From: Alphaproteobacteria bacterium
GTDB lineage: Bacteria; Pseudomonadota; Alphaproteobacteria; UBA9219
Reading direction: 5' to 3'
Assembly (NCBI GenBank): GCA_019233975.1
Contig: JAFALY010000035.1
Coordinates: 1 to 64,000 of the forward strand
DNA length: 64,000 bases
Shown here: positions 28,667-48,946 of the stretch, in pieces
Layout: each line of letters starts with the position of its first letter
Position numbering within the stretch: position 1 is the stretch's first letter
Translations under genes and position numbers: made by a program
Notes under the pieces: model-generated
What the model was told of the DNA's origin: nothing
What the model saw: only the letters and a program-made list of their open reading frames with translations
Database searches by the model: none

Positions 28667-29227
28667 TTAGGACGATAAATGCCTTAAAAGACGACGAACG
28701 CCACTGAAACGTCTTCCTTTTGGCATCATGGCGTAGCTATGGGCAACGACACCATCGGCTATAAAATTATCGCCGCCTTCGATATCCAAATTATACACTT
28801 GTTGCGGCCCAAGATCGTCGGTGCCCGTGACAACAGAAGGCGTTAATCTACCGTCCTGCCAAACCATTAAAACGTCACCTTTTTGGAGCTCACTGACCTC
28901 TCTCCATACTTTTTTCTTACCTTGCTGGACCAGAACAGTATGTGTGCCCGTGGCCTCGATAGCGCCATGTTGATGAGAGACTTTGGTGAGCGCCATCGGC
29001 CCTTCGCTGACCCGAAGCTCTTTAACAGTGTGTGCCAGCAGTTGCCCACTCGCTTTGTCCCAAGAATAGAGAATCTCATCTTTTTTGAGATCAGAGATCC
29101 GCTTTGAGCCATCTGGAGTTAAAATCGACGTCGCTGCAGAGAAGCAGCTGCTGTAGTTGTAACCATTTCGTCCCGGATAATAGGCGCCAGTCTGGTCATT
29201 GGGGGACGGCAAATTAATAATACCCAT
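28667..29227 (-). CDS. Stand-alone Hint-domain (intein/hedgehog-like) protein
   Basis: The protein of 186 residues is almost entirely one Hint domain. The catalytic Cys is at residue 28 (SSCFSAATSILTPDG). The block-B T-x-x-H is in GAIEATGTHTVLVQQG, and the C-terminal block is NFIADGVVAHSYAMM. Hint domains perform N-S acyl shifts that drive self-splicing or cleavage. Here the C-terminal Asn usual in splicing inteins is replaced (AHSY), which favours cleavage or N-terminal reaction only. The N-extein equivalent is 27 residues with no signal peptide; the C-extension is short and Arg-rich. Base composition is more AT-rich than in the flanking genes, hinting at acquisition. No clear ribosome binding site was found. 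Confidence 0.75.
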   Translation of the reverse strand: MGIINLPSPNDQTGAYYPGRNGYNYSSCFSAATSILTPDGSKRISDLKKDEILYSWDKASGQLLAHTVKELRVSEGPMALTKVSHQHGAIEATGTHTVLVQQGKKKVWREVSELQKGDVLMVWQDGRLTPSVVTGTDDLGPQQVYNLDIEGGDNFIADGVVAHSYAMMPKGRRFSGVRRLLRHLSS

Positions 29228-32901: not shown

Positions 32902-33582
32902 ATGTCAAAACCCGAAGCCGCTGCGAAAACAGAATTGACGGCTGCCAAAATCGACCCTGTTGCCACGGTCATGCATCGCAATGCGTTTTACCGCGACGGC
33001 TATCGCATGCTGCTGCGCATTACAGTCGTGCAATTGTTTGTCATCGGCCTGTTGATCGCCAGCCTTGTGGGCATGGTGCTGACGGTTGAAACGCGGCAGG
33101 TTTATTTTGCCACGACATCCGATGGACGCATTATCCCGATTATTCCGTTGTCCGAACCCTATCGTGAAAATTCGGAAGTCGTCACCTGGGCCGCTGAGAC
33201 GGCCAAGAACGTAATGCGCTTTGACTATATTGATTATAAGGCGCGGCTGCAGCAGGTTTCGCCCAGTTTTACACCCGGTGGATGGGAGAGTTTTAACAAG
33301 GCGCTGAAGGATTCGAACCTGCTGGATGCGTTGCAGGCACGCAAACTGGTGCTTACCATGACCGTCAATGCGGCGCCGGAAATCATCAATTCGGGGCTTC
33401 ATAACGGCATTTACACCTGGGATCTGCGCATGCCCGTAACCATCAAGATGGACGGTGCAGAACCGCCGCAACCCATTAACGCCAGCCTGCTGTTGCGTGT
33501 CGTGCGCGTTTCGAATTTGCAAAACCCGGATGGCATCAGTATCGAACAATGGGTGACCTTGACCGGTCAGAACAACCGCTGA
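32902..33582 (+). CDS. Dot/Icm type IVB secretion protein DotI/IcmL, first copy
   Basis: The protein of 226 residues is a bitopic inner-membrane protein. It has a cytoplasmic head, a transmembrane helix at about residues 40-62 (QLFVIGLLIASLVGMVL) and a periplasmic DotI/IcmL (TraM) domain with VVTWAAETAKNVMRFDYIDY, FTPGGWESF and YTWDLRMPV. DotI forms a ring at the inner membrane. In Legionella the gene before icmL is icmM (dotJ), a shortened paralogue. Here that position is held by a copy with an intact periplasmic domain. AAGGAAAG precedes the ATG. The stop overlaps the next start by one base. Confidence 0.88.
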   Translation: MSKPEAAAKTELTAAKIDPVATVMHRNAFYRDGYRMLLRITVVQLFVIGLLIASLVGMVLTVETRQVYFATTSDGRIIPIIPLSEPYRENSEVVTWAAETAKNVMRFDYIDYKARLQQVSPSFTPGGWESFNKALKDSNLLDALQARKLVLTMTVNAAPEIINSGLHNGIYTWDLRMPVTIKMDGAEPPQPINASLLLRVVRVSNLQNPDGISIEQWVTLTGQNNR

Positions 33583-34364
33583 TGGCTGAAAATCCGCAAC
33601 CGGCTTCTTCTACCAAAGGCACATCAAAGCCAAAACCCAAAGCCGCGCGTAAACCCTTTTTACAGACGGGCCGCGTGGGGAAGTTGGCTAAAACGCCTTT
33701 GATGAGAGTGTTGTTGACGCGCGATTTCTTCTCGCTCGAGCCCGTTGCCGTTGATTTTCTACCCTATGAGGAAGCCGAGGCAGCACGCACCTTCCGCGTT
33801 ATTCGCGGTGTGTCGCGTAATGCCATTATCATTGCAGCCTTGACGATATTGATGGTCTTTCTTATCCCCTTCACGCGCCCGCTGACCGTCTATTACGCGT
33901 TGGCGCCTGCGGGCAAGGTGACGCAGATGATCCCCCTGCCGCAACCGAATCTGACGAATGCCGCTGTGACCGGCTGGGCCGCAGAAAGCGTGACAGAGAT
34001 ACTTTCTATCGGCTTTGGTGACTTTGATGAAAAACTGGTGCGGCAGAAAAAACGCTTCACCCGCGATGGTTGGGAGGCGTTTGTTAAAAGCTTCCTGAAA
34101 GAAGGAGTCGACCAGTCGTTCCGCCGGCATCAGCTGGTCCTGACCACTGTGCCGACGGATACCCCCCTTGTCGTATCGCAGGGCGTCAATGCCGACCATG
34201 TTTATGAATGGAAGGTACAAATGCCCATCATCATGAACTACACAACCAACAATAACGTTTCCAAGCCGGTAAACGGGAATATCGAGTTAACTATTGTGCG
34301 CGTTCCCTATGAGCAGAGCGCCAGCGGCTTGGCGATAGATGTGTGGCATCAGTCACGCCATTAA
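33582..34364 (+). CDS. Dot/Icm type IVB secretion protein DotI/IcmL, second copy
   Basis: The protein of 260 residues has a Lys/Pro-rich cytoplasmic head, a transmembrane helix at about 80-100, and a periplasmic IcmL domain (TGWAAESVTEILSIGFGDF, FTRDGWEAFVKSFL, YEWKVQMPIIMNY). It aligns over its full length with the preceding gene, so the pair arose by duplication. Its head is longer. The one-base overlap (TGATG) with the first copy indicates coupled translation and suggests a hetero-oligomer like Legionella DotI-DotJ. Confidence 0.9.
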   Translation: MAENPQPASSTKGTSKPKPKAARKPFLQTGRVGKLAKTPLMRVLLTRDFFSLEPVAVDFLPYEEAEAARTFRVIRGVSRNAIIIAALTILMVFLIPFTRPLTVYYALAPAGKVTQMIPLPQPNLTNAAVTGWAAESVTEILSIGFGDFDEKLVRQKKRFTRDGWEAFVKSFLKEGVDQSFRRHQLVLTTVPTDTPLVVSQGVNADHVYEWKVQMPIIMNYTTNNNVSKPVNGNIELTIVRVPYEQSASGLAIDVWHQSRH

Positions 34365-34496: not shown

Positions 34497-35831
34497 TTGT
34501 CTACTATCCGCTTGTACTTCCAACGGAACATGGCTCTCTGCCTTACGCTGGCCTCCGGGCTTGCTCTGGCGACGGCCCCCGCCCTTGCGCGCAGCGCTTC
34601 TGACACCACGTCGGACAGCTTTTTTTCCGCGAGTGATTTGACCTATGCCAAGTCGGGCACATCGGCCCATGGCAGTGCGCAACCGACGCAAGGTGACGGT
34701 GGTGCTATGGGAACGCTCAGCGTACCCGCAACGACAGCGGCTTCACCAGACGTGGCGGCCCCAGCGGTAACACCGCCGACCGTGACACCACCAACGGCAA
34801 CAGCAAAGCCTGTCTCGAGCGTGGCGGCCAAGGTCGCGGCGTCAGGGCAGACGGCAGCGGTCACCCCAACGGTGACGCCCGCGACTTCCGCGCCGACATC
34901 AACCGCCAACGGTATTTCCATTCCTGAACCACCGCCCGCCACGGCGCTGACCAACGATGCGACGCAACTGGCAGCGCAAGCTGAACAAGCCGCCCTGCAG
35001 GCGCAGGCGGAAGCTGAAGCTTCGCAAGCTAAACAGGAAGAAGATCACAATCGCAAATCTTTCAAAAAGGCGGAAATGGGATTGTTGCCCATGTCGCCCG
35101 ATCAGGTGCGCGGCTTTATGCATCGCCTTGAAGATACGCAGGAAGCGGCGCAACCGCCTTCAACCGGTCAACCGCATGGTAAGGTGCGTATCACGACCAT
35201 TTCGCTTGATCCCGGTAGCGATCCGCCACAGGTCAGTCTGGCCGCGGGCTACGTGACCACAATTAATATGCTCGACTCCACGGGCGAGCCCTGGCCCATA
35301 CTGGATGTGGGTGTCGGTGGTAATTTCGAGGTATCGCCGACGCAGGCTGGTTCGCATGTCGTGCGTATTATGCCACTGACGCGCTATGGTGCCGGTAACC
35401 TGTCCATTCTCCTGAAGGACCTGCCGACCCCCATCATTTTCCGCTTGTCGGCGGCGACCAACAATGTTGACTTGCGACTGGATGCGCGCATTCCCAAATT
35501 CGGCCCGAATGCCAAGATGCCGCTCGTGAACAGGCCGCGCCTGGAAGCGGGCGATGATGCGCTCATGAACATCCTGCAAAACAACCCGCCTGCCGAAGCG
35601 CACCGCATGAAGGTCAGTGGCATTGATGCGCGCAGTTCTGCCTGGGCAGTGGGTGAACATGTTTATGTGCGGACGCCGCTCACGCTTTTGTCGCCATCCT
35701 GGAACGCCAGTGTGGCGTCTGCGGACGGCATGACCGTTTATGATATCGGCAATGCGCCTATTCTCTTGATGTCCGATAATGGCGCGGTCGTGCGTGCGCA
35801 TCTTTCGATGGATACAGATCATGACAAATAA
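34497..35831 (+). CDS. Dot/Icm core-complex protein DotH/IcmK
   Basis: The product of 444 residues has a signal peptide (cleavage near ATAPALARS), then about 110 residues of Ala/Pro/Thr-rich linker. A coiled Gln/Glu-rich helix and the conserved C-terminal half follow, with AAGYVTTINMLDSTGEPWPI, VRIMPLTRYGAGNLSILL and PIIFRLSA. These are hallmarks of DotH/IcmK (TraN), an outer-membrane core component and VirB9 analogue. The start is TTG 34497 with GAGGGG six bases before it; the next Met (34530) would spoil the signal peptide. It overlaps dotG by 11 bases. Confidence 0.88.
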   Translation: MSTIRLYFQRNMALCLTLASGLALATAPALARSASDTTSDSFFSASDLTYAKSGTSAHGSAQPTQGDGGAMGTLSVPATTAASPDVAAPAVTPPTVTPPTATAKPVSSVAAKVAASGQTAAVTPTVTPATSAPTSTANGISIPEPPPATALTNDATQLAAQAEQAALQAQAEAEASQAKQEEDHNRKSFKKAEMGLLPMSPDQVRGFMHRLEDTQEAAQPPSTGQPHGKVRITTISLDPGSDPPQVSLAAGYVTTINMLDSTGEPWPILDVGVGGNFEVSPTQAGSHVVRIMPLTRYGAGNLSILLKDLPTPIIFRLSAATNNVDLRLDARIPKFGPNAKMPLVNRPRLEAGDDALMNILQNNPPAEAHRMKVSGIDARSSAWAVGEHVYVRTPLTLLSPSWNASVASADGMTVYDIGNAPILLMSDNGAVVRAHLSMDTDHDK

Positions 35832-37482
35832 TTTTGATGATTTCGAAGGCAATGAGCATTTGGGTGAAGAACCCACCGCCGTTCCCGCGAAAAAGGGATT
35901 GGTCGAAAGCCTTGGCCACGCCTGGCGTTCGCAGCCGGTATTTAAACTATTTGTGCTGATGGTTGCTGTTGGTGCTGTTGCCGCCGTGTCCATCAGCTTG
36001 ATGTCGGGCGACCGCAAGACACAAAGCTCGGCCAATGTCATCAAGCCGCCGGATTTGAACGAAGCGCCTGGGGGCAAAAGCTCGCCCTACATGAAGGAGC
36101 AGACCGAACTTGCCAACAAGCAGCGTGTCGCTGAAGCGATCAAGAGCGGCGGCAGTGCGGTCCCAACCCCTGTGGGTGCGACGGGAGGGCCCGGTGATGC
36201 GCTCGGGGGCACCAAAGAAGACGATATGCTGAATGAATTGAAGGCTGAGATTGCCAGCATGAACAAGCAGATTCAGGACACAAAACGTGCGGCCCCGCCG
36301 CCCATTACGTCGGTTGCCGTTCAAGGCGTGCCGCAGCAGGGCCAACCCGGCCAGCCTGAGCGCTTTGATGATTCTCTGGCGCAGGCCATGCAACGCCAGA
36401 TGTCGCAGCTGATGGATTCATGGACGGTTCACGGCATTAAATCCGTGACGGTCAGTAAGTCAGGTCATGGTGATGGTGGTGGTGATGAAATTGTAGATGC
36501 CAATGCATCCGGCACCGGCGTTTCAACTGTTCGGCATAACCCGACGGAAACCAGCGCAGGGTCTTCTGCCGCAGGTGGCTCTTCGGTCGGTAATTCGCAG
36601 GCGCGCACAATCGTTCCGGCGGGCACGGTCAGCTATGCACAATTACTGACCGAAGCAAATTCTGACGTGCCGGGTCCGATTATGGTGCAGATTGTCTCTG
36701 GCCCGCTGGCGGGTGCGCGTGCGATCGGCAGTTTTGAGGTTGCGAACGGCAACGCCGACTATCTGGTTCTGGACTTCAAGCTCGCCAATTATAAAGGGCA
36801 TGATTATCGTCTGAACGCAATCGCGCTTGATCCGGATACGACCTTGGGCGGCATGGCGACAGAGGTTGATCAACGTTACTTTATGCGTGTTGTACTGCCG
36901 GCGGCATCGGGCTTTCTGCAGGGGTTTGCCTCCGCGCTCGGGCAGGGTGACTCGAACACAACGATCAGTGGTACGACCACCATCGTACAACAATCCAGCA
37001 AGGGATATAAGCAGGGCCTTTACTCCGGGCTTGGCGGTGCTGCACAGACAGCCGGACAGTTCTTCCAGAATCAGGCCAACCAGACGCGACCTTTGGTGCG
37101 CGTTGCCGCAGGTACGCCGCTTGGTTTGTTCTTTGTCGATACGGTTGCCGAAGATTCCTATTACCAGTCTGATGCGCAGATCGCGGCAGATTGCGCCAAG
37201 CAGGGCATGGCCGTTGGCCAGATTACAGCCAACCAGACCGGTTGCGTACAAAAGACAACGAGTATTAACGGCATTCCCGGTTTTGGTGGCGTGAATGGTT
37301 TGGCGGGGAATCCCTACGCTCAGCTCAATGGCCTCGCTGGCGGCGGCGTGCCCACGACGGGGGCTGGCGCTGTACCCTATCCGAACTACGCTACATCGGG
37401 GCAAACCGGCGTGACCAACCCTCTCGCATTATCTGGCGGCACAACCGCTTATCCGGGCAGCACGATCTATTATACGCACTAA
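35821..37482 (+). CDS. Dot/Icm core-complex protein DotG/IcmE (VirB10-like)
   Basis: The protein of 553 residues has a cytoplasmic N-terminus, one transmembrane helix at about 38-60 (FKLFVLMVAVGAVAAVS) and a periplasmic linker. The C-terminal VirB10/TrbI-like beta barrel contains IVPAGTVSYAQLLTEANSD, GPIMVQIVSGPLAGARAIG and PLVRVAAGTPLGLFFVDTV. DotG spans both membranes and forms the channel wall. Legionella DotG is about twice as long because of pentapeptide-like repeats; those repeats are absent, as in IncI TraO. It follows dotH with an 11-base overlap. Confidence 0.92.
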   Translation: MTNNFDDFEGNEHLGEEPTAVPAKKGLVESLGHAWRSQPVFKLFVLMVAVGAVAAVSISLMSGDRKTQSSANVIKPPDLNEAPGGKSSPYMKEQTELANKQRVAEAIKSGGSAVPTPVGATGGPGDALGGTKEDDMLNELKAEIASMNKQIQDTKRAAPPPITSVAVQGVPQQGQPGQPERFDDSLAQAMQRQMSQLMDSWTVHGIKSVTVSKSGHGDGGGDEIVDANASGTGVSTVRHNPTETSAGSSAAGGSSVGNSQARTIVPAGTVSYAQLLTEANSDVPGPIMVQIVSGPLAGARAIGSFEVANGNADYLVLDFKLANYKGHDYRLNAIALDPDTTLGGMATEVDQRYFMRVVLPAASGFLQGFASALGQGDSNTTISGTTTIVQQSSKGYKQGLYSGLGGAAQTAGQFFQNQANQTRPLVRVAAGTPLGLFFVDTVAEDSYYQSDAQIAADCAKQGMAVGQITANQTGCVQKTTSINGIPGFGGVNGLAGNPYAQLNGLAGGGVPTTGAGAVPYPNYATSGQTGVTNPLALSGGTTAYPGSTIYYTH

Positions 37483-37541: not shown

Positions 37542-38747
37542 ATGAGCGACGAGAATCTGGATCATCACGAACAGCATGACCATGCAGAGGTTGGTCACGA
37601 TCATCATGAAGCCGCAGGCGATGCCTGGCATGGCCATGAACCGCCGATTGATGATTTCAGCGATCCGATGTCCGAAGCCACGGCGTCAGAAGAATCAGAT
37701 TCAATAGAAGACATCGCCGTCCCCGTTGAAATGACGCGCCGTTCGCCGGTCGCGATTGTTGCGGCCGCGATTGTCGGCGGTGTCCTGCTGATTGGCGCCG
37801 TTGCGTATTGGCAATTCGGTTCCATGCTGCGCGGTACGCCGCAAACCCCGCGTCCTATCAGCATGACACAGAACGCGGCCCCTAAACCCTTGTCGGCTGA
37901 ATTGACAAAGGATAACGGCATTATTCAAAACGGCACGGCACAGCCGACGCCGCCTGCGGCGGAGCCGCAACCACCTATGGTGCCGCCGGTAGCCGAAGCG
38001 CCTGCGCCAGCACCAGTAACTGCACAAGCGGTGGCTCAGGAACCTGCGCCGGTTAACCCCGCCTCTATCCCTGTCACGAATGCGCAACCGGTTTCCACTG
38101 CCCCAGCACCCGCAGCGCAGCCTGTTGTTGCTCAACCGGTGGTACCAGCACCAGTTCCATCAACTACTGCGGTTGTTGCACCCGCTGCTGTTCCCGCACC
38201 TGCGCCTGTTACAGCTCCTGCCACCGCTAAAAACGCCGCGACGGATGACGCGCGCGTGGCCGAACTAACCGCCCGTGTTGACGAGCTGCAGAAGTCGTTG
38301 GCGCAAGCCACACAACAGCTGTCGCAAATGGGCAATAAGGTGGCAACGCCTGCGGCCTCCGGCGATGTGAACGATCGCATTGCGCATCTGGAGCAGGAAA
38401 TTATCCAGCTACAGCAGGCCCCCGCCACCGTTAAGGCCAGGCCGATTGTGCAGGCCGCAGCCGAAGCGCCGGTTGTAACCAGCCACAAAAAGCATCACAG
38501 CAAAACCCCCGGCACCACAAGTCACCACAAGACGACGCAAAAATCGACGCGTGAAGCGAATACCAGTGGTCGTTGGGTTTTGCGCGCCGCCTCGCCGGAT
38601 GAAGCCTGGGTTTCCAAGACCGCCGATTCCCACGATCTGCGGCCTGTTCATGTAGGCGATACCGTGCCGGGGATTGGTCGTGTACAATCCATCGACCAGG
38701 TTGGTGACAACTGGGTTGTGCGTGGCACCGCCGGCGCCATACACTAA
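37542..38747 (+). CDS. DotF/IcmG-like type IVB secretion protein
   Basis: The product of 401 residues has a His/Asp/Glu-rich N-terminus (about 12 His in the first 35 residues) and a transmembrane helix at about 68-93. A long Pro/Ala/Val linker and a coiled coil (VAELTARVDELQKSLAQATQ, DRIAHLEQEIIQLQQ) follow, with a small C-terminal domain (WVLRAASPDEAWVSKTAD, VGDTVPGIGRV). Topology and position after dotG match DotF/IcmG, which docks effectors and associates with the core in Legionella. Sequence identity to IcmG is not obvious to me, so the call rests on layout and synteny. AAAGGAGAATGG marks the start. Confidence 0.7.
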   Translation: MSDENLDHHEQHDHAEVGHDHHEAAGDAWHGHEPPIDDFSDPMSEATASEESDSIEDIAVPVEMTRRSPVAIVAAAIVGGVLLIGAVAYWQFGSMLRGTPQTPRPISMTQNAAPKPLSAELTKDNGIIQNGTAQPTPPAAEPQPPMVPPVAEAPAPAPVTAQAVAQEPAPVNPASIPVTNAQPVSTAPAPAAQPVVAQPVVPAPVPSTTAVVAPAAVPAPAPVTAPATAKNAATDDARVAELTARVDELQKSLAQATQQLSQMGNKVATPAASGDVNDRIAHLEQEIIQLQQAPATVKARPIVQAAAEAPVVTSHKKHHSKTPGTTSHHKTTQKSTREANTSGRWVLRAASPDEAWVSKTADSHDLRPVHVGDTVPGIGRVQSIDQVGDNWVVRGTAGAIH

Positions 38748-38790: not shown

Positions 38791-38985
38791 TTGCATGGGT
38801 CCATTGCCCCGATTCCTGCTTTTATTTTCGGGCAAGAATGCGATAAAATCCTTGCGCCATAGGCATGAAAATAATTATCCTTGCAATTAAAAGCTTGTTA
38901 AGCGTTCTCCGTGCAAACTGTGGTGACAGAGAGAATTCGAGATAAATTGAAGTTAATCAAAGAGATATCAATTGGGGAAAAGCCG

Positions 38986-39975
38986 ATGCGGACGCGCACA
39001 GCTTGGATAGTTCAGAATATGTTGGTTGCCATTCGCAACCGCGCCGCGGCAGCGTTTAATGCCTCTTCTGCCATCATCACAGCCTTGTTTTTGCTTGGAA
39101 TGATCCCCGGTAAGGCCGATGCCGCAACCTTTGGCGACGTTATTTGTAACATCAGTACCCCAAATTCCGTCGGGGATATAGGCGCTATATTGACCGGTGT
39201 TGCCTATCTGGGCGGTGCGATCGCGATCGGCAGTGGGCTGCTTATGCTGTCAAAATCGGCAGAAAACTCGCGTGATAATCCCTTGCATAAAGCCATCGCT
39301 GCTATGGTCGGTGGTACCGGACTGTTATTCTTGCCTGGTTTTACGAACTGGTCGGTTACCTCCCTGTTCACTTATCAGGGGGCTGGTGGCGTGACGTCTT
39401 GCGTGCCGGGGCAACCGCAAAGTTCGTCAGGCGGCGGGCTGGACGTCATGATGACCAATCTGGTGCAGAATATCCAGGATCCTATGGTCTATCTGATCTC
39501 GTTTGTCTCCTTCATCGCCGGTACGTTTTTCATGATCCGCGGCCTGCAAAAGGCCACGAAATACGGTGCAGACCCGCGTGCCAATTCGGTTACAGCCATC
39601 TTGGCGAATATCATCTTCGGCGCGTTGTTGTTCACTGTCGGACAAACTGTCGACACGATTATGACCACCATTTTTGGGACGAACAGCATCACCAGCTTTG
39701 ATGCCGTCGGCAACGCCATTGACAACATGTTTGCCAGCGCCGGCGACACGACCCAGTTCAAGGCCGCAATGAAGGCTGCTTTTACCTTCTTCCAGTTAAT
39801 CGGCATGATCGCCTTCGTGCGCGGCATACTGGTGTTGAAGGCGCATGCCGAAGGCGACAGTCAGAAAACCATTACGCAGGGTCTGACGCATATTATTGGT
39901 GGCGCCATGGCCATTAACATTTATGAATTCCTGCAGCAGGTCAACGACACGTTCGGTTTTGACTTCTTGTCCTGA
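38986..39975 (+). CDS. DotE/IcmC-like membrane protein of the type IVB system
   Basis: The product of 329 residues has a signal/first helix followed by several hydrophobic helices in two similar halves (GAILTGVAYLGGAIAIGSGL...FLPGF and MVYLISFVSFIAGTFFMIRG...FTVGQ). The final segment, IGMIAFVRGILVLKAHAEGD, closely resembles the family signature of the downstream IcmD-like protein (LIGTGAMKLKKHAEGD). Legionella IcmC/DotE and IcmD/DotP are related inner-membrane proteins at this map position. The role in the machine is poorly defined. Start ATG 38986 has GGGGA upstream; a longer frame to 38911 is less likely. Confidence 0.8.
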   Translation: MRTRTAWIVQNMLVAIRNRAAAAFNASSAIITALFLLGMIPGKADAATFGDVICNISTPNSVGDIGAILTGVAYLGGAIAIGSGLLMLSKSAENSRDNPLHKAIAAMVGGTGLLFLPGFTNWSVTSLFTYQGAGGVTSCVPGQPQSSSGGGLDVMMTNLVQNIQDPMVYLISFVSFIAGTFFMIRGLQKATKYGADPRANSVTAILANIIFGALLFTVGQTVDTIMTTIFGTNSITSFDAVGNAIDNMFASAGDTTQFKAAMKAAFTFFQLIGMIAFVRGILVLKAHAEGDSQKTITQGLTHIIGGAMAINIYEFLQQVNDTFGFDFLS

Positions 39976-40186: not shown

Positions 40187-40570
40187 ATGAAGAATCAGAA
40201 ATTGTCGAATGAGATTTTGCAAGGCTTGATGATGGCGGCAGTTGTCGCTGCGGCGCTGCCGATCCCGGAAATGGCTTTCGCGCAAAATCTCGCGAACAGC
40301 GTTGACGTTGTCCATACGGGCATGTCGCGTATTCCGAATATCATTGCTGGCCTGTTTTACATGGGCGGCGCGGGCCTGATCGGCACCGGTGCCATGAAGC
40401 TGAAGAAGCACGCCGAAGGTGACAGCGGTACTACGCTGGGTCACGGCCTGGGTCGTGTCGGTGCGGGTACCGCGCTGATCGCCATGCCGGCCTTTGGTAA
40501 CTGGCTCAACAACTCGATGGCGATCGGTTACAACGGCGCCACGTCGCAGAGCCTCGGCACCATTCAGTAA
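40187..40570 (+). CDS. DotP/IcmD-like membrane protein of the type IVB system
   Basis: The product of 127 residues has a signal peptide (cleavage near MAFAQN). It then carries SRIPNIIAGLFYMGGAGLIGTGAMKLKKHAEGD, with helix one and a conserved charged motif, and a second hydrophobic region ending in PAFGNWLNNSM. Size, topology and position before icmJ match IcmD/DotP. GGGGAGAGGA precedes ATG 40187. It is a short paralogue of the DotE-like gene upstream. Confidence 0.82.
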   Translation: MKNQKLSNEILQGLMMAAVVAAALPIPEMAFAQNLANSVDVVHTGMSRIPNIIAGLFYMGGAGLIGTGAMKLKKHAEGDSGTTLGHGLGRVGAGTALIAMPAFGNWLNNSMAIGYNGATSQSLGTIQ

Positions 40571-40587: not shown

Positions 40588-41277
40588 GTGAGCTTTCTCC
40601 CCATCACCCTCGGCGTCAGGCCTGCTCCTGGCGCCGGGAAGGTGAGTCCCGCAAAAACCAAGGCTATGAAAGAGGAAGCGCTGCAGCGCGACGGGAACAC
40701 CTGTCGCTTCTGCGGCTTTCATGCGCTTAAGTATCAGCGGGTTATCGCCTGTGCCGATGCGGGGGATCCGCCGTATGCGACCGTTTGCACTTTTTGCGAA
40801 CAATGCCTGATGCCGGAAACGACAGGTATCACGGGTGCCGGTCTTTTGGTCTGGTTGCCGGAATTGACACAGGTGCAGTTGAATCACATCGTGCGCGCAA
40901 TTTATGTCGCGCGATCCTTACGCGAAGACGAAGGCGGCGAAGCGTTGGCCAACATGGCGACGCGCGCGCTAGATATGATCACATCACGCCGTGCGGACGC
41001 TAAACGTCGTCTTGGCAGTGATGACCCCATTTTGCTGGCGACCATCATGCAGGAAAATCTGTCGCCGGAAGAAAAACAGACCGCGCTGACCAAACTGGAA
41101 GGCGTTCGCCTTCTGCCAGCCGAAAAATACATGGTTCACGGCCCGAAGGGTGACGCCAATCATTTCCCGCAGATTGTTCGTTTCTGGTCGTCGCCACAGG
41201 GTCCCTTTGGTCGTGTTCCTGCCAACCAGTGGCAGGAAATGTTCCAGACGGCAGCCTCAACCGCTGGCAACGCCTAA
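40588..41277 (+). CDS. DotN/IcmJ, zinc-binding component of the type IV coupling complex
   Basis: The product of 229 residues has a Cys-rich module RDGNTCRFCGFHALKYQRVI ... TVCTFCEQCLMPET, the zinc-binding HNH-like region of IcmJ/DotN. The helical part VWLPELTQVQLNHIVRAIYV and SSPQGPFGRVPANQWQEMF are also characteristic. Legionella DotN joins DotL and DotM in the coupling complex that selects effectors. The start is GTG 40588; the resulting N-terminus (SFLPITLGVRPAPGAGK) resembles that of family members, which argues against the later ATG 40666. It lies 17 bases after the icmD-like gene. Confidence 0.87.
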   Translation: MSFLPITLGVRPAPGAGKVSPAKTKAMKEEALQRDGNTCRFCGFHALKYQRVIACADAGDPPYATVCTFCEQCLMPETTGITGAGLLVWLPELTQVQLNHIVRAIYVARSLREDEGGEALANMATRALDMITSRRADAKRRLGSDDPILLATIMQENLSPEEKQTALTKLEGVRLLPAEKYMVHGPKGDANHFPQIVRFWSSPQGPFGRVPANQWQEMFQTAASTAGNA

Positions 41278-41547
41278 ACCCTCGCCATACCCGTTGAATA
41301 ACGTCATAACTGCCCACATGTCGGTGGTGTTGCAATTCCTGCGTATTATCAGGCTGTTAATGAAGCGTTGATGTGCTGCGGTTCAGCTTAATGTGGTCTG
41401 AAACTACCCCCTTGTTAAATAACACTTAGCCCGCATTTTTTGATTACCAATTATTCATAAGTGGGTTACTAGATTAAGGGGTTCGGCTGGCTGCCTGTTT
41501 CGCAGGCGGTCTACCCCGTCATATCTGGTAACGTGTTCGCATCATTC

Positions 41548-44538
41548 ATGTTTTCGATCCTTGAGGATATCCTAGCCACTGCCATGTCGGTTGCGCGTCA
41601 GCCGGTTGAATCCTTCGTTCAACTGGAAACTGCGGACGACCCCCATACACTGGTAGCGGCTGATGGCTCGCTGGTCAGTTTTGTCCACCTGTTCGGCTCG
41701 CGGCAGGTTATCGGCGATGCGGAATATGGCTGGATCATCGATCAGGCGACCGTAAAGCTTGGCGCGCGCTTCGACAGGCCCGGCTATGCCATGCAGGTTT
41801 ACTTTATGCGCGATCCTGCGCTGGTCGGTCGTGAAATTGACCGCGTGATGCGCGGTAATCGTCGCACGGCACAGGGGTTAGAGCTTGATCTGGACGATCT
41901 GTTCGACGAACGCCGCCGCAACATTGCGCGATACACGGCGCAGGAAGAAATTTATCTGGTCCTTTGGACACGGCCGACGGTGCTGACGCCAAACGACCTG
42001 AAGGACGCCATCAAGCAACGCGCGGATAAAAAATGGCCGCAGGCCGGACGCTCGCAATTTCCGCATCTGGCGCTTGAGCCGTTGCGCGCGCGTCACAAAA
42101 GCTATGCTGCTTCCGTCGTTGCCTCGCTGGAAGAACTGGCGATGAAGGCGGCGCTGGTGGATGTGCATACGGCGCTTGCTTCTGTGCGGGGCAGTATCTA
42201 TCCGACGCTGGCGAACGACGAATGGCGCGCCAATCTGCCGGGTGACCCGTTGATGCCGCGCCACCCGGGCAGCCGCACGCGTGACGCATCCGACCTTTTG
42301 TGGCCGCCCTTGCGCCAGCAAATTTGCACAGGCGATGCGGAAATCGTCTCCTCAACCATTGTGCGTGTCGGCAATTTGCTGTGGGGTGGCGTCGATATGA
42401 CGCTGGCACCGGCTGAGCCGACGCCGTTCCCGCAATTGCTGTCGCGCCTGATTGATAACGATGTGCCGTTCCGCGTCTCATTCCTGATTGAAAGCGGCGG
42501 GGCCAAAGGTGCGGCACTCAAGGCCGGCATTGCTGCTGTTTTGGGTTTCACCAATCAGGTCAACCGGCAGATCCGCGCGTCGCTGCGTGCGCTGGATATT
42601 TATGCGCAAAGCCAGCCGGTCGTGAAATTGCGGCTTTCGATTTCAACGCACGCGCCGGTCGGTGAGCGTAAGCTGATCGAAGCGCGTTTGGGCGCTATCA
42701 CACAGGCGCTCGAAGCCTGGGGTTATTGTCAGGCGTCTTCGGCGGGCGGCGATCCGCTCGAAATCGTTATGTCGTCGGCGCTGGGCATTGCCTGCGCGTC
42801 CACAGCGCCTGCAGCCGTGGCGCCGTTCCGTGAAGTGGTCAAACTACTGCCGTGGCAAAGGCCGTCTTCGCCGTTCAAGGAAGGCGCCGTTATCTTCCGC
42901 ACCGATGACGGACGCCTGTGGCCCTATCAGACGGGCAGCAGCCTGACGACCACATGGTTCGACCTGATTTTCGCGCAACCCGGCGCGGGTAAATCCGTGT
43001 TGATGAACGCGCTTAATCTGGGCGCTGTGTTGTCGCTCGGGGCAACCAAACTGCCTTATGTCGCTATTCTGGATATCGGTCCATCTTCATCGGGTTTGAT
43101 TTCGCTGATCCGCGACGCGTTGCCGCTCGACCGCCGCCATGAAGCGCTGCATTTCAAACTGCGCATGACACCGGAATACGCGATCAATCCGTTCGACACG
43201 CAATTGGGTTGCCGTTATCCGTTACCGGAAGAACGGTCATACCTGATTGAACTTATTACCCTGCTTTGCACGCCGCCCGGCTCCGAACCTTATGACGGTA
43301 TGGGGCAATTGGCGGGGCTTTGCGTCGATGAAATGTATCGCTGGCGCGATGACTCGGGCGCCAACACGGAATCACGCCCCTATTTACAGGGGATCGAAGG
43401 CGAAGTGGATGAAGCGCTTGCAACCTATAACGTACATCTGCCGGATGATCCGTATTGGTGGGATGTCGTGAATGCCTTGTATGACGCGGGGGCCTATCAC
43501 CTCGCCATGCTGGCGCAGCGCCATGCGGTGCCGACGTTGGTTGATGCCGTGACGGCATCACGCCGCCCGCAGATCCGCGCCCTTCTGGAAGAAACGCAAA
43601 TCGGCGCTTCGGCTGAAACGCTCTTGCATGCGTTTGAACGTATGATCGCCTCTGCCGTGCGTGAGTTTCCGATTTTGGCGTCCGTAACGCGCTTTGACAT
43701 TGGTGGCGCGCGCGTGGCAGCCATCGATTTGCAGGAAGTCTCGCCGCAGGGGGATGATCTGGCTGATCGTCAAACCGGCATTATGTATATGCTGGCGCGG
43801 CATGCCCTGATCCATTCCTGGTGGTTGGGGCCTGAAATGCTGCGCTCGGTGCCCGAACGGTTCCGCCCCTACCACGAGGGCCGTATTCGCGATATCCGCG
43901 AAACGCCCAAGCGTATTTGTTATGACGAATTCCACCGCACCAGCAAAACCCCTGGTGTCCGCGCGCAAATCATCCGCGACGTGCGCGAAGGCCGTAAGTG
44001 GGGCGTGCAGATCGTGCTGGCTTCGCAATTGCTGGATGACTTCAGCAAAGACATGGTCGATCTGGCAACGGGTATCTGGATCTGCGGCACGGCTGTGTCT
44101 GAACGCGCGATACAGGAAACCGCCGACCGTTTTGGTCTGACCGACACCGAACGGTGGATTATGCGTTACCGCCTGACAGGTCCGCGCCCCAGCGGCGCGC
44201 CGGTGCTGTTGCTGCTGTCCACCAACGAAGGACGGTATGACCATCATTTGGTCAATACGCTGGGGCCGGTTGAATTGTGGGCCCTGTCGACGTCCAGCGA
44301 AGACGTTCTGTTGCGTACGCAACTATACGAAGCGCTGGGGGCCAATCTGGCGCGTAATATTCTGGCGCAATACTTTCCGGGCGGGACCGCGCGTCATGAA
44401 ATTCGCCGCCGCGTTGTTCTGCGTACCGAGAAAGGCGAGTTTTCAGCCAGTTCCACCGCGCAGATTATTAGTGAGCTGGCGCAGGAACTGATCGCGCAGG
44501 CGCGGTCGGATACGACAAAATTGCTGGCGCAGAGCTGA
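41548..44538 (+). CDS. DotO/IcmB, VirB4-class ATPase of the type IVB system
   Basis: The ATPase has about 996 residues. Its N-terminal part has VESFVQLETADDPHTLVAADGSL, typical of IcmB/TraU. The Walker A loop is FAQPGAGKSVLMNALNLG near residue 480. The Walker B-like region is KRICYDEFHRTSKTPGV, followed by QIVLASQLLDDFSKDM with sensor-like residues. It powers assembly or translocation at the inner membrane. ATG 41548 gives the usual N-terminus; GTG 41533 is an alternative. A 270-base gap without a gene precedes it, larger than elsewhere in the cluster, so a separate promoter is plausible. Confidence 0.93.
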   Translation: MFSILEDILATAMSVARQPVESFVQLETADDPHTLVAADGSLVSFVHLFGSRQVIGDAEYGWIIDQATVKLGARFDRPGYAMQVYFMRDPALVGREIDRVMRGNRRTAQGLELDLDDLFDERRRNIARYTAQEEIYLVLWTRPTVLTPNDLKDAIKQRADKKWPQAGRSQFPHLALEPLRARHKSYAASVVASLEELAMKAALVDVHTALASVRGSIYPTLANDEWRANLPGDPLMPRHPGSRTRDASDLLWPPLRQQICTGDAEIVSSTIVRVGNLLWGGVDMTLAPAEPTPFPQLLSRLIDNDVPFRVSFLIESGGAKGAALKAGIAAVLGFTNQVNRQIRASLRALDIYAQSQPVVKLRLSISTHAPVGERKLIEARLGAITQALEAWGYCQASSAGGDPLEIVMSSALGIACASTAPAAVAPFREVVKLLPWQRPSSPFKEGAVIFRTDDGRLWPYQTGSSLTTTWFDLIFAQPGAGKSVLMNALNLGAVLSLGATKLPYVAILDIGPSSSGLISLIRDALPLDRRHEALHFKLRMTPEYAINPFDTQLGCRYPLPEERSYLIELITLLCTPPGSEPYDGMGQLAGLCVDEMYRWRDDSGANTESRPYLQGIEGEVDEALATYNVHLPDDPYWWDVVNALYDAGAYHLAMLAQRHAVPTLVDAVTASRRPQIRALLEETQIGASAETLLHAFERMIASAVREFPILASVTRFDIGGARVAAIDLQEVSPQGDDLADRQTGIMYMLARHALIHSWWLGPEMLRSVPERFRPYHEGRIRDIRETPKRICYDEFHRTSKTPGVRAQIIRDVREGRKWGVQIVLASQLLDDFSKDMVDLATGIWICGTAVSERAIQETADRFGLTDTERWIMRYRLTGPRPSGAPVLLLLSTNEGRYDHHLVNTLGPVELWALSTSSEDVLLRTQLYEALGANLARNILAQYFPGGTARHEIRRRVVLRTEKGEFSASSTAQIISELAQELIAQARSDTTKLLAQS

Positions 44539-44579: not shown

Positions 44580-45812
44580 ATGGCCGATAAAGAACCTGAG
44601 ATGGGATGGACTTTTGTGCTGCTGTTCCTCGTGCTGGGACTGGCGCTTATCCTGTTCTGGTATTATTTCCGCGGCCCTATCCTTGAAACGCTGCGCTGGG
44701 TTCGCTTGGGCGAATTGTGGATGATCCACCCCTTTACCAATGTGCTGGACCCTTGCATCAACTGGGTTCGGTTTGCCCAGATCAACGATACATCACCGTC
44801 GATGGATATGGTGCACTACACCTACCAGTGCTTTGGTGCGGATACGCTCGCCACACTGACGGGACCGGACCGTGCGGATTACTTCGCGCTCAGCGCCCAG
44901 CCGATGAGCGACCTTGAATCCCGCATCAGTGTTTATCTGAAATGGCCGCTGATAGCCGCCTTTGTCGCAGTTGGCGTTCATGCCAGCTATTTCTCGATCA
45001 AAAACAAGTTTCGTCAACGCCATAACCTGGAAAGCTTTATCAAGGTGCAGGCGAAGATGTGGCCGGTCATTAATCCGATTGTGGATTTTAATCCCATTAA
45101 ATCCAGTGCCCGCCTTTATGGCAGCAAGGTGCCGGATAAACTTCCTTTGTTTGCCGAAGCCCTGTCGCCCGAAGAATGGATCAGTTTCCACCGCATCCCC
45201 GTCAGTAACGGCGTTGTGGACCGCGAAGCGACGCGGCGCGCTCTGGTTGCACAATTGGGGCCGCGTTGGAACGGTATCAAGGGTCAACCGGATTATATCC
45301 GCGCCCTGCTGGCCGCCTTTGCGCTAAAGGGCGTACAAAAACGTGATCAGTGCGAAGAACTGCTGGGTAAAATCGCACTCTGCTGGTCGGCCAAGGGCGG
45401 CATGCAATTGACGCCCGCCGTTATGACGGAAGTGAACAAGATATTGCGTGATCCGAATATTGGCGGCAAGGCGGAAGAACTCGGCGCAAACTTTGCCTAT
45501 CGCGCCACGGCCGTGCTGGGTATCTTGCGCTGGGGTCGTATGCAGGGCGGTGTTATTGCACCCGCTGCGTTTCTATGGATGCGTGGCGTTGACCGCCCGT
45601 TATGGTACGCTATGAACAATCTTGGCCGCCGTTCTTTCCATGCCGAAGGGGCGGGTGCTTTGGCGCACTTTATGGCTGAACAGGCCGCCGGTAATGCCTT
45701 GCCTATCCCGCGTGTGGATACGGCGATCATCACCTTCAACCAGTATCTTGCTGAAACCGGCAGGCCGATCCCGCCGCGCGAAGGTGATGATGATCATCGC
45801 AAGGGGGCATGA
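44580..45812 (+). CDS. DotM/IcmP, type IV coupling complex membrane protein
   Basis: The product of 410 residues has an N-terminal hydrophobic helix (FVLLFLVLGLALILFWYYF), a second at about 120-140 and a soluble C-terminal domain with FAEALSPEEWISFH and YAMNNLGRRSFHAEGAGALAHFM. These match IcmP/DotM, which partners the ATPase DotL/IcmO. In Legionella icmP lies beside icmO, but no DotL gene is in this window. AGAGAGGA precedes ATG 44580. The stop overlaps the next start as ATGA. Confidence 0.86.
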   Translation: MADKEPEMGWTFVLLFLVLGLALILFWYYFRGPILETLRWVRLGELWMIHPFTNVLDPCINWVRFAQINDTSPSMDMVHYTYQCFGADTLATLTGPDRADYFALSAQPMSDLESRISVYLKWPLIAAFVAVGVHASYFSIKNKFRQRHNLESFIKVQAKMWPVINPIVDFNPIKSSARLYGSKVPDKLPLFAEALSPEEWISFHRIPVSNGVVDREATRRALVAQLGPRWNGIKGQPDYIRALLAAFALKGVQKRDQCEELLGKIALCWSAKGGMQLTPAVMTEVNKILRDPNIGGKAEELGANFAYRATAVLGILRWGRMQGGVIAPAAFLWMRGVDRPLWYAMNNLGRRSFHAEGAGALAHFMAEQAAGNALPIPRVDTAIITFNQYLAETGRPIPPREGDDDHRKGA

Positions 45813-46339
45813 CCATGGCGCTCGGTAAAACAGCCGTTGAGGCAAAGCGTGTCGGCAGCTCGCTGGTTGCAACATTCAACCGCGCAAAGCCGCCGCTAAT
45901 CTGGCGCTTTGATCTTGAGCGCCATCACAGTTTTACCCTGTCATTGCAGGGCGAGCAGGGAGATTGGGAACTGGGCATGACATCACTGAAAGGTGATTTT
46001 CATCCCATCGTCACCTTTACGGCCCGCGAAGATGCCGATGAAGCCTTTGCCGCAGTCGCACAGATATTGGCCAAAGGCGCCACCTCCAAACGCAACTGGC
46101 TCAAGTCGCTGTTAAAGTTGGTCGGGGGTTGCATCGTTTTGTTTGTCATTCTGCTGTTCTGCATGGTGGCCTTCGTGCGGTTTGAAGCAAAAGAATCTGT
46201 TATGCATAGCGGACTGCCAGCGACGATGGGTATGGCTGGCAGTGCCCCGGGTGGTACGGCTGCTAAACCGACCGAGAACGCGTCGCCCAAAGTCGGTGAC
46301 CCGCAATCTGCGGATGATGTGCTGCGGCCACCCCCATGA
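45809..46339 (+). CDS. Membrane protein of unknown function in the Dot/Icm cluster
   Basis: The product of 176 residues has a soluble N-terminal part of about 95 residues (PPLIWRFDLERHHSFTLSLQ, GDWELGMTSLKGDF). One transmembrane helix at about 100-122 and a short Gly/Pro/Ala-rich periplasmic tail follow. It overlaps dotM by four bases (ATGA), so it is translated together with it and is probably part of the same machine. I do not recognise it as a named Dot/Icm protein. ATG 45815 is an alternative start. The N-terminal part may be a small beta-rich domain. Confidence 0.72.
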   Translation: MTMALGKTAVEAKRVGSSLVATFNRAKPPLIWRFDLERHHSFTLSLQGEQGDWELGMTSLKGDFHPIVTFTAREDADEAFAAVAQILAKGATSKRNWLKSLLKLVGGCIVLFVILLFCMVAFVRFEAKESVMHSGLPATMGMAGSAPGGTAAKPTENASPKVGDPQSADDVLRPPP

Positions 46340-46374: not shown

Positions 46375-47133
46375 ATGTATATGCTCGTTTTCATCACGCT
46401 TGTGATTGGCCTCATCAACATCTATGCGCAGATATTGACGGTGCAGACCCAAAGGCTTGCGGCCAGACAGGTCGGCCTGGCGCGCACCATGCAGCAATGG
46501 CAAACCGCCGCCATTTCAATGGCGAACAGCATCTATTATGAAAATGGCACACCGGCCACCACGTCGGGGTGCAGTCTGTCGATTAATGTGCCTGCCGGTC
46601 TTGCGGTATGTGCGCCACCCGTTCCCGGTGTAACGGGAGATGCCGCTGGTACGGTGACCGCTGGCGGCAATGTGCTGAACATGATTGTTAACCACAACAC
46701 TAACGCGACGGAATGCGTTCATCTGCCATCCGTGTGCACGGCGCATTCCGGCATAAACTGCACAAGTTGTAAGGCCAGCTACGATGCGGCAGATTATCAA
46801 TACTATTCCATCTATGTGAAGGATAACACAACGCATCAAAGCTTTGTGGTGACTTTCGTTCCGCCGCCCACTATTTCAGCCAGCAATCCAGCCCCCGGTT
46901 TTCTGACGCTCGCAGGGGGTTATCAGACCAGCCAGACTCAGGCGGATCTGATGCAGCAGTTCGTCAACGCGTTTGTGCCGAATTATACCTATGGCATCGT
47001 GAATGGGCGTGTTTTAAAGGTCGCAGGGGCGCAGATAAACGGCAACCCGCTGACTTTTGACCTGACGGGCTTGGCAGTTGGTACAATACCGGATAATTCT
47101 ATTGCGATGATCGGCAACCCGGTCGGCTTCTGA
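46375..47133 (+). CDS. Pilin-like membrane-anchored exported protein, unknown
   Basis: The product of 252 residues starts with an uncharged hydrophobic helix (MYMLVFITLVIGLINIYAQI) followed by a long amphipathic helix (QTQRLAARQVGLARTMQQW). This is pilin-like architecture but without the charged leader and Gly-Phe cleavage site of a type IV prepilin. The distal part contains five Cys, suggesting disulfides, and beta-rich segments. It precedes the prepilin-S74 gene by 26 bases and likely shares its transcript. Possible roles are a minor pilin or assembly partner. Confidence 0.65.
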   Translation: MYMLVFITLVIGLINIYAQILTVQTQRLAARQVGLARTMQQWQTAAISMANSIYYENGTPATTSGCSLSINVPAGLAVCAPPVPGVTGDAAGTVTAGGNVLNMIVNHNTNATECVHLPSVCTAHSGINCTSCKASYDAADYQYYSIYVKDNTTHQSFVVTFVPPPTISASNPAPGFLTLAGGYQTSQTQADLMQQFVNAFVPNYTYGIVNGRVLKVAGAQINGNPLTFDLTGLAVGTIPDNSIAMIGNPVGF

Positions 47134-47159: not shown

Positions 47160-48551
47160 ATGAAACTGATGCAACATTTCCGTTCCGGGCTTCGTAAAAA
47201 ACAGGGCGGTTATACGCTCGTGGAACTGGCGATTGTCCTTGCCGTTGCCGGTCTGCTTTTTACCGGCTTATGGCGCTTGCTGTCGGGCGGTAATCTGCAA
47301 CTGAAAGACGCCGCCACCGCCACGCAACAACAACAACTGATCAGTGCCATCAAGGGATACTTGTTGTCATCAAACGGCACTTCCTTTATTCAGTTGGCAG
47401 GTTCAGCGGGCACATGGCAGTTGAAACTGCCGACGAATGCAGCAGGCACGGCGAACTGCGTCACTGAGGTTGCGGGTTATAACGAAACCGGCCTTTGCAA
47501 CTATCTGCCCGCCGGATTTTCAGCGACGACCACCAACCCGTATGGTCAGACTTATCTGGTTTATGGCAAAAATGATGCAAACAGTCCGCCGGTCGGTTTT
47601 GCGTTCCTGATCATGACAACGGGCGGTGAAACCATCACTGATGCCTCGGGTGGTCGGGTCAGCAGTCAAGTCGGCGCCGATGGTGGTTTTATCTATAGCA
47701 ACAATGTCTGCGGTAACGCCCCGAGTGTTTTTGCCTGGGCTTGCGGTGCTTATGGCGCATGGTCGGAACTCGTGACCGATTTCGGCGTGGCGGCACCCGC
47801 TGCCGGTGGTTTTGTTGCCAGCCGCACTTATTATTCGCCGGATCAGGATGCGAACCAGCCGTGGCTCGCCCGCACATTACTGAATAACAATATTGGCTAT
47901 AACACGATGTCGACCAACCTGTTTTTGGGTGGGCAGACCATGTATATGGCAAACTCGACAGGCGCGACAGCGGGTGGTGGCACAATCAGCATGCAGGGCG
48001 GATCCATGACGGACGCCGTCACGGACGCAACCGGCGCGCAGATCAATATAACGCACAGCAGTACCGGCAATACCACCAATCCGCGCCCGCAGATATCAGT
48101 TGCCAGTGGTTGCTCGCAAACCAGCCCCGGCGCCCCGGCCAGTTGTCAGTACTCAATCAACGTCACAGGTGACATGAACGTGTCCAGCCTGATCAACGCC
48201 AACTATGTTTATGCGCAGAACCTGTATGCGCAGAGCTTTATTTATCAATCATCGGATCAGCGTCTGAAGAAAGACGTGACGACCATCGAAGATGGGCTCG
48301 ACAACGTCATGCGTATTCGACCGGTCAATTACACCCTGAAGGTCAATGATAAAAAGAGCATGGGTGTTATTGCGCAAGAGCTGCAACAGATTTACCCCGA
48401 CGCCGTAACGGTTAGCGACGGCAACGGTATGTTGGCGGTGAATTATTCCAGTCTGATCGCGCCGCTGATCGCCTCGGTACAGGAACTAAAGCACGAAAAT
48501 GATGCGCTCAAGGCGCGTATTCAAGCGTTGGAAACTAAGACGGGCCGCTAA
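47160..48551 (+). CDS. Type IV prepilin-like protein with C-terminal Peptidase S74 chaperone domain
   Basis: The product of 463 residues has a basic leader, then KKQGGYTLVELAIVLAVAGL. The peptidase cleavage site is G17/Y18 and Glu sits at position +5 of the mature protein, as in type IV pilins. Residues 60-360 are Gly/Thr/Asn-rich and beta-fibre-like. Residues 365-463 are an intramolecular chaperone auto-processing domain: SSDQRLKKDVTTIEDGLDNV, MGVIAQELQQIYPDAV, VNYSSLIAPLIASVQELK and a closing coiled coil. The SDQRLK stretch has the Ser and the Lys five residues on, which form the catalytic dyad in phage endosialidases. Self-cleavage and trimer formation are therefore expected. AAAGGA precedes the ATG. 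It is the last gene of the cluster on this strand. Confidence 0.88.
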   Translation: MKLMQHFRSGLRKKQGGYTLVELAIVLAVAGLLFTGLWRLLSGGNLQLKDAATATQQQQLISAIKGYLLSSNGTSFIQLAGSAGTWQLKLPTNAAGTANCVTEVAGYNETGLCNYLPAGFSATTTNPYGQTYLVYGKNDANSPPVGFAFLIMTTGGETITDASGGRVSSQVGADGGFIYSNNVCGNAPSVFAWACGAYGAWSELVTDFGVAAPAAGGFVASRTYYSPDQDANQPWLARTLLNNNIGYNTMSTNLFLGGQTMYMANSTGATAGGGTISMQGGSMTDAVTDATGAQINITHSSTGNTTNPRPQISVASGCSQTSPGAPASCQYSINVTGDMNVSSLINANYVYAQNLYAQSFIYQSSDQRLKKDVTTIEDGLDNVMRIRPVNYTLKVNDKKSMGVIAQELQQIYPDAVTVSDGNGMLAVNYSSLIAPLIASVQELKHENDALKARIQALETKTGR

Positions 48552-48564
48552 GACACGGCCCTTT
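48542..48564 (+). terminator. Possible terminator at the end of the Dot/Icm cluster
   Basis: GGGCCG (48542-48547) pairs with CGGCCC (48556-48561), followed by TTTATT. The hairpin overlaps the prepilin stop codon. The stem is short and the T-run imperfect. Confidence 0.45.
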
Positions 48565-48946
48565 ATTGCGGCACGGTGTTGAGCTCGCACTGCAGAACGC
48601 AGCCGCGACCGTCCGTTGCGGGGACAATGCAGCATGTGGGGGCCAACTGTGAGCCTATCCCCTTGGGAATGGCGTCTGTCCTGCCTTCAAGGCAGCTGTT
48701 TAAGTCCGGTGTCGTGAAATCTTCAAAAAATCCGTCAGGTGAAGTGTACCCGAAATTCTGGGTGATGCATTTGTTGGCGGCTGCCAGCAGGGCTGGCGGC
48801 GGCAGGTAGGCGTCTTGCGGGCAGGCGAAATGCTCGCTGCACATGGCGCGACCAAAATTGTGCGACTTTGGCGGATCATCAGCCAGAGCGGGTGTGCAAA
48901 CCAGCAAACCAAACGCAGCAATAGCAACGCGTAAGTGCAAACGCAT
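48563..48946 (-). CDS. Small secreted cysteine-rich protein, unknown
   Basis: The product of 127 residues has a signal peptide (cleavage near TPALADD). The mature part of about 105 residues contains eight cysteines (MCSEHFAC, NKC, SC, TCC, GC, QC), enough for four disulfides. No known family is recognised. It converges on the prepilin gene with 11 bases between the stops. It could be a secreted or periplasmic factor, possibly related to the neighbouring system, but only position suggests this. Confidence 0.65.
   Translation of the reverse strand: MRLHLRVAIAAFGLLVCTPALADDPPKSHNFGRAMCSEHFACPQDAYLPPPALLAAANKCITQNFGYTSPDGFFEDFTTPDLNSCLEGRTDAIPKGIGSQLAPTCCIVPATDGRGCVLQCELNTVPQ

Follow-up and report, generated by a model that had tools for sequence, protein, structure and literature searches.

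A PilV-like prepilin ending in a Peptidase S74 chaperone domain accompanies an IncI-type type IVB secretion system in an alphaproteobacterial order

The window analysed here, a stretch of 64,000 nucleotides, contains a run of plus-strand genes for a type IVB secretion system (T4BSS) that leads up to a gene encoding a prepilin-like protein, which we call S74-PilV (Table 1). The ORF begins with ATG and encodes 463 residues in a single frame, and two genes (45809-46339 and 46375-47133) separate it from the gene for DotM. Elsewhere in the window, a 186-aa ORF on the minus strand (28667-29227) matched an intein/Hint splicing domain (PF14890).

Table 1. Genes of the secretion and pilin cluster and the parts of S74-PilV, in coordinates of the window.
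Feature	Position	Strand	Evidence or remark
DotI/IcmL	32902..33582	+	PF11393, E 2.4e-47
DotI/IcmL, second copy	33549..34364	+	PF11393, E 3.3e-36
DotH/IcmK	34497..35831	+	PF12293, E 5.3e-72
DotG/TraO	35779..37482	+	NF033900, E 4.7e-43; NF033884, E 3.3e-25
DotF/IcmG-like	37542..38747	+	weak NF038218, E 0.0042
TraQ-like protein	38911..39975	+	NF033883, E 3.1e-15
VirB2/TrbC-like small membrane protein	40187..40570	+	weak PF04956, E 0.0063
DotN/IcmJ-like	40588..41277	+	NF038221, E 5.1e-21
DotO/TraU ATPase	41533..44538	+	R64 TraU match; order-wide conservation
DotM/TrbA coupling-complex protein	44580..45812	+	PF23127, E 1.2e-42
Small conserved membrane protein lying between DotM and the pilin-partner gene	45809..46339	+	
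Upstream partner of S74-PilV, single-TM	46375..47133	+	next to S74-PilV in most relatives inspected
S74-PilV, predicted type IVb minor pilin/tip adhesin with S74 intramolecular chaperone	47160..48551	+	463 aa
Class III (prepilin) leader, 17 aa, predicted cut Gly17/Tyr18	47160..47210	+	N_methyl; invariant G17/E22
PilV-like pilin domain, residues 18-238	47211..47873	+	R64 PilV hhalign; plasmid PilV tblastn; model
Predicted variable fibre tip, residues 239-364	47874..48251	+	identity/gap profile; PHROG tail-fibre profiles
Peptidase_S74 chaperone and C-terminal coiled coil, residues 365-463, predicted self-release	48252..48548	+	Pfam; dyad
Catalytic dyad codons, Ser365 and Lys370	48252-48254; 48267-48269	+	
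Small secreted Cys-rich protein, convergent with pilin gene	48563..48946	-	beside it in many relatives

The two ends of the protein belong to different families. The Pfam N_methyl profile matched residues 12-37 (E 8.8e-6; 25.5 bits against a curated cut-off of 21.2), and the leader ends in KKQGG/YTLVE, which places the predicted cut between Gly17 and Tyr18 with Glu at +5. Peptidase_S74 matched residues 365-417 (E 3.1e-16; 59.8 bits against a curated cut-off of 22), and its catalytic motif reads Ser365-Asp-x3-Lys370. The earlier note had described a textbook prepilin N-terminus and a C-terminal S74 domain with a Ser-x4-Lys dyad and had proposed profile searches for both; each description held, with both matches above the curated cut-offs. 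A second S74 domain in the genome from which the window derives (L002, G000:C26:15-332) is interrupted by a contig end, and S74 domains were also seen within open frames of 25,189 aa (G132:C34, L161) and 9,801 aa (G029:C1:636085-636663).

The pilin part was identified by comparison with plasmid-borne pilins. Alignment by hhalign to R64 PilV gave a probability of 96 and an E value of 2.7e-9 across residues 8-264, and tblastn against plasmids matched annotated PilV adhesins over residues 11-265, with E values down to 2e-8. The Shufflon_N family (PF04917), which covers the shufflon-type PilV tip adhesins of conjugative plasmids, was matched by 4 of 28 members of the S74-PilV set (best E 4.3e-12), the window protein itself giving no match in this search. 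On these three lines of evidence a generic pilin was dropped in favour of PilV; judged by sequence, residues 8 to 264, approximately, share ancestry with PilV, which serves the IncI-type type IVb pilus as its tip adhesin. In IncI plasmids the PilV C-terminus decides which recipient cell is gripped (PMC9045228). The PilV proteins of R64 and TP114 resemble S74-PilV in this homologous N-terminal region, in a constant anchor followed by a variable C-terminal tip, and in the company of PilN-PilO-PilQ-PilR and an IncI-type T4BSS; they differ in that their C-terminus is a shufflon segment, whereas an S74 chaperone occupies that place here and no shufflon was noticed at the locus in the window. A pilin-anchored fibre tip matured by S74, as the earlier note had suggested, is still the best reading of the sequence, but its pilin is of the PilV type rather than generic, and since PilV accompanies IncI-type T4BSS, its occurrence beside a type IVB cluster is no surprise. 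In a sample of 385 alphaproteobacterial genomes, fusion of PilV with S74 was confined to the order to which the window belongs, and PilV-like N-termini without S74 were found outside it. Large PilV-like pilins without an S74 match were also seen in genome G133, two of them adjacent at L142 (C13, 7299-9599 and 9596-11917; 767 and 774 aa) and a third of 775 aa on contig C29.

The gene neighbourhood fits this identity. The gene run upstream of the pilin gene is as the note had it when it placed the protein at the end of a Dot/Icm cluster, but the likeness of that run to the IncI (R64) tra genes is as strong as to Legionella Dot/Icm, and TraQ and TraO models both match within it. The cluster is therefore better called an IncI-type T4BSS with a type IVb pilus system. 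The genome holds DotB, DotC, DotG, DotH, DotI, DotL, DotM, DotN and DotO, that is, a T4BSS of the Dot/Icm type (MPF_I). Its T4BSS, pil and DotL genes are assembled on separate contigs (C4, C19, C33): C4 carries DotC, DotB, PilN, PilO2, PilQ, PilR and three further prepilins, with the pil genes adjoining those for DotB and DotC, and DotL lies on C33. Proteins of the prepilin peptidase family are also present. In a related genome (G025) a single 32-kb stretch reads DotN-DotO-DotM-DotL...DotC-DotB-PilN-PilQ-PilR-pilins-partner-S74-PilV and ends with the S74-PilV gene. In R64, too, both gene sets lie in one transfer region. A homologue of the small membrane protein at 45809-46339 sits between DotM and DotL at two loci (L042 and L180). 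The adjoining partner (46375-47133) resembles PilM in size and topology, yet hhalign gave a probability of 0.5% for that assignment, so that no homology to PilM was detected; no Pfam match was obtained for 8 homologues of this family. A TraY/DotA-like ORF was seen in G009 (L035).

A search covering 144 genomes returned near full-length homologues from the whole of the window's family and from two more families in its order. For the analysis of conservation we used 28 complete ORFs from this order, including that of the window. In all 28 the prepilin N-terminus and the S74 C-terminus are joined in one frame and both domains are recognised by Pfam, with S74 always C-terminal, behind the variable fibre segment. 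The earlier note had named a frameshift joining two genes as a finding that would overturn its interpretation; such an origin, or a chimera, is out, as many genomes carry the homologue as one ORF. One copy (L026, G029:C1 around 1640284-1641815) is broken into two overlapping frames, which may reflect a sequencing error, a pseudogene or a frameshift.

Gly17, Glu22, Ser365, Asp366 and Lys370 are invariant in the 28 proteins, as would be the case if selection acted on prepilin processing and on S74 chemistry alike. The invariance of Ser, Asp and Lys favours real self-cleavage, as judged from the alignment. It also weighs against an arrangement in which S74 only folds and trimerises the protein and is never cleaved, leaving a trimeric stalk with the C-terminal coil as the working tip. 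The conservation of that coil (residues 431-463), about equal to that of the pilin domain (42% versus 44%), speaks for such a stalk; the residues between Asp366 and Lys370, in contrast, differ among the homologues while the catalytic residues do not, and mutation of the equivalent Ser in Bdellovibrio Bd3182 abolished processing and localisation (PMC10769870). We consider the uncleaved stalk unlikely and self-cleavage the preferred reading.

A model of the pilin domain alone reached a mean pLDDT of 76.8, mainly 70-94 for residues 18-229, and predicts a long N-terminal helix with a beta sheet, in which Cys195 is conserved. A Foldseek search with it gave no significant fold match despite the confident helix and sheet. 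In the monomer model of the whole protein, for which 10 sequences were used, both the pilin region and the C-terminal coil are resolved, and pLDDT falls below 50 for residues 230-381. Such a gap would be compatible with an intertwined trimer, without being evidence for one. Matches of the whole model in a fold search of the PDB, in which the tip region was unmodelled, were not significant.

The stretch between the anchor and the chaperone is the most variable part of S74-PilV. Mean pairwise identity was 44% in the pilin domain and 44% in the S74 core, and 27% with 37% gaps in residues 239-364. PHROG tail-fibre profiles, among them phrog_5668 (E 1.4e-29), align to as much as residues 242-460, so that the match runs upstream of the S74 domain into this middle region. 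The same profiles are what might be advanced for a phage or prophage tail fibre fused to a pilin by accident and without function. That origin we hold to be scarcely credible, given that three families of the order conserve the protein with its catalytic and pilin residues invariant and that no phage genes occur among the annotated neighbours within the window.

One genome, G016, displays two versions of the tip. The end of its pilin contig, C72, shares an exact 149-nt stretch with each of two alternatives, contigs C57 and C52, and the far ends of these share a second exact 149-nt stretch with contig C28. The structure (L182, L183 and L184 on C57, C72 and C52, respectively) is a metagenome assembly bubble with two paths, along which the same pilin domain runs in frame into different tails of tip and S74, 220 and 246 aa in length. 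The paths differ as well in the homologue of the convergent Cys-rich gene and in a long, repeat-rich, Hint-domain-like gene. The change is an allele replacement in one orientation, with no inversion. The simplest reading is that two haplotypes of the population have exchanged tip cassettes; two tip copies within one genome are a possible alternative.

The secretion system is widely retained in the order. DotO was found in 31 of its 33 genomes, 62-76% identical where near full length. DotL was found in 23 of 32 genomes searched, all 23 being among the 28 members of the order and the 4 others coming from elsewhere in the class. Almost every genome in which they were found has one copy of each, and this, together with the identity of DotO, is as expected for vertical inheritance. 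For a phylogenetic profile we took the 21 genomes with a completeness of 90% or more and a contamination of 5% or less. DotO was present in 20 of these and the S74-pilin likewise in 20, the latter split between contigs in G016 and broken in frame in G029. The sole good-quality genome lacking S74-PilV (G028) also lacks DotO and DotL; this joint loss would link the pilin with the T4BSS, and as a single event in one genome it is only suggestive.

Whether the cluster belongs to an integrated IncI-like conjugative element, with S74-PilV selecting recipients, can be weighed on the same data. Its gene set is of the IncI type and homologous to that of R64, and PilV of IncI plasmids does recognise recipients (PMC9045228). 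However, profiles for three relaxase families, PF03432, PF03389 (MobA_MobL) and PF08751 (TrwC), found no match in the window's genome. The single-copy DotO and DotL and the range of DotO identity also tell against this element, and the cluster in the window is bounded by tsaD and ogt. We judge a conjugative adhesin to be improbable. Since no relaxase of these three families was detected, protein delivery is likelier than conjugation, and we infer a resident machine for protein delivery or cell contact rather than a mobile element. The system here thus departs from the IncI PilV plasmids in being chromosomal-looking and order-wide as well as in its lack of a detected relaxase.

Several described systems share parts of this design. 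The S74 subgroup of the mosaic adhesive trimers (MATs) of Bdellovibrio bacteriovorus consists of surface fibres for which trimerisation and self-cleavage were demonstrated experimentally (PMC10769870). Like S74-PilV they are bacterial surface fibres terminated by S74 with an SDxxxK motif; unlike it they begin with a signal peptide and an N-terminal beta-rich domain in place of a prepilin anchor. Membership of the MAT superfamily was accordingly rejected, as the beta-rich domain of ~130 aa that follows the signal peptide is absent and the protein begins instead as a prepilin, with a PilV domain. Another parallel is offered by TcpB and CofB, homotrimeric minor pilins at the tip of type IVb pili (PMC9565799). 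They too are large, tip-placed type IVb minor pilins with additional C-terminal domains behind the pilin domain, but they carry no S74 and serve stand-alone adhesive pili rather than a T4BSS. Both have small secreted partners, TcpF and CofJ (PMC9565799), with which the Cys-rich protein at 48563-48946 may be compared; that this protein, whose versions in G016 differ along with the tip, might likewise be bound there is a guess by analogy.

The earlier note was not aware of a described system of this kind linked to a type IVB secretion cluster; prepilin-S74 fusions in themselves have been recorded before. As given in the relevant sections of Raynaud et al. 2021, the combination IPR012902-IPR030392 is one of the 15 modular pilin architectures met most often (PMC8179133). 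Those sections list it only, with S74 as a peptidase function, and connect it neither with PilV or a T4BSS nor with trimerisation or variation of the tip (PMC8179133). From this predicted function, and from the name of the domain, one might suppose a pilus-borne protease acting on other proteins, as the same sections suggest (PMC8179133). Characterised S74 domains, however, act in cis and once, for their own release from a trimeric fibre (PMC10769870); the best sequence matches of the domain in S74-PilV are phage tail-fibre chaperones and MyRF, and its constant place behind a variable fibre segment is a further point against a protease working in trans, which we regard as very unlikely.

Prepilin-S74 proteins also occur outside the order. 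Among 70 S74 loci found there, 10 began, by pattern, like a prepilin, and 6 of these exceeded the Pfam N_methyl cut-off; L089 gave no N_methyl match, and L069, L088 and L091, falling below the cut-off, were not counted as firm prepilins. The firm cases come from Bacteriovoracaceae, a family related to known predators, from Gastranaerophilales-type MAGs and from one rumen MAG. Three of the six also carry YadA_head repeats, a fold that is trimeric. Prepilin, YadA_head and S74 were seen together in the Gastranaerophilales-type MAGs at L116:8285-10480, L123:8258-10327 and L131:43-2382, and short prepilin-S74 proteins of 357-360 aa were seen in Bacteriovoracaceae (L069, L072, L077). In the open-access full-text literature we found no paper describing a PilV-S74 protein of an order-wide T4BSS with tip exchange. 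What appears to be new is the PilV identity, the order-wide link with a T4BSS, the conserved dyad and the exchange of tips.

Taken together, we put a probability of about 0.7 on S74-PilV being the pilV product of a resident IncI-type T4BSS with a type IVb pilus, forming a trimeric tip that would be folded by S74 and then cleaved. We infer a course of events extending from leader removal and placement at the tip to trimer formation, cleavage before Ser365, ligand binding and transfer of cargo. A prepilin peptidase would remove the leader of 17 residues, and the pilin domain (residues 18-238, approximately) would be built into the pilus, in all likelihood at the tip. Three chains would fold together, residues 239-364 or thereabouts becoming an intertwined trimeric fibre. 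The C-terminal S74 domain would drive this folding, cut the chain before Ser365 and depart. The mature variable fibre may then bind a ligand displayed on the surface of a neighbouring cell, bringing the T4BSS into contact with that cell. Its order-wide conservation alongside a type IVB machine suggests that S74-PilV probably decides which cell the machine grips. Tentatively, and with more doubt than confidence, one may picture a resident, seemingly non-conjugative IncI-type T4BSS that picks its targets through a type IVb pilus bearing a self-cleaved, trimeric, phage-like fibre, with cassettes of tip, S74 and cognate secreted protein swapped as phages exchange tail fibres.

The finding joins two subjects: how S74 matures the fibres of phages and predators, and how type IVb tip pilins confer specificity on elements carrying a T4BSS. 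It may be that tips of the PilV type are trimers by necessity and depend on a chaperone in cis for their maturation. Prepilin-S74 proteins are common in databases, and for their architecture self-cleavage offers a different reading from that of a working protease. The uncultivated alphaproteobacterial order itself would be marked by a conserved, contact-dependent secretion machine.
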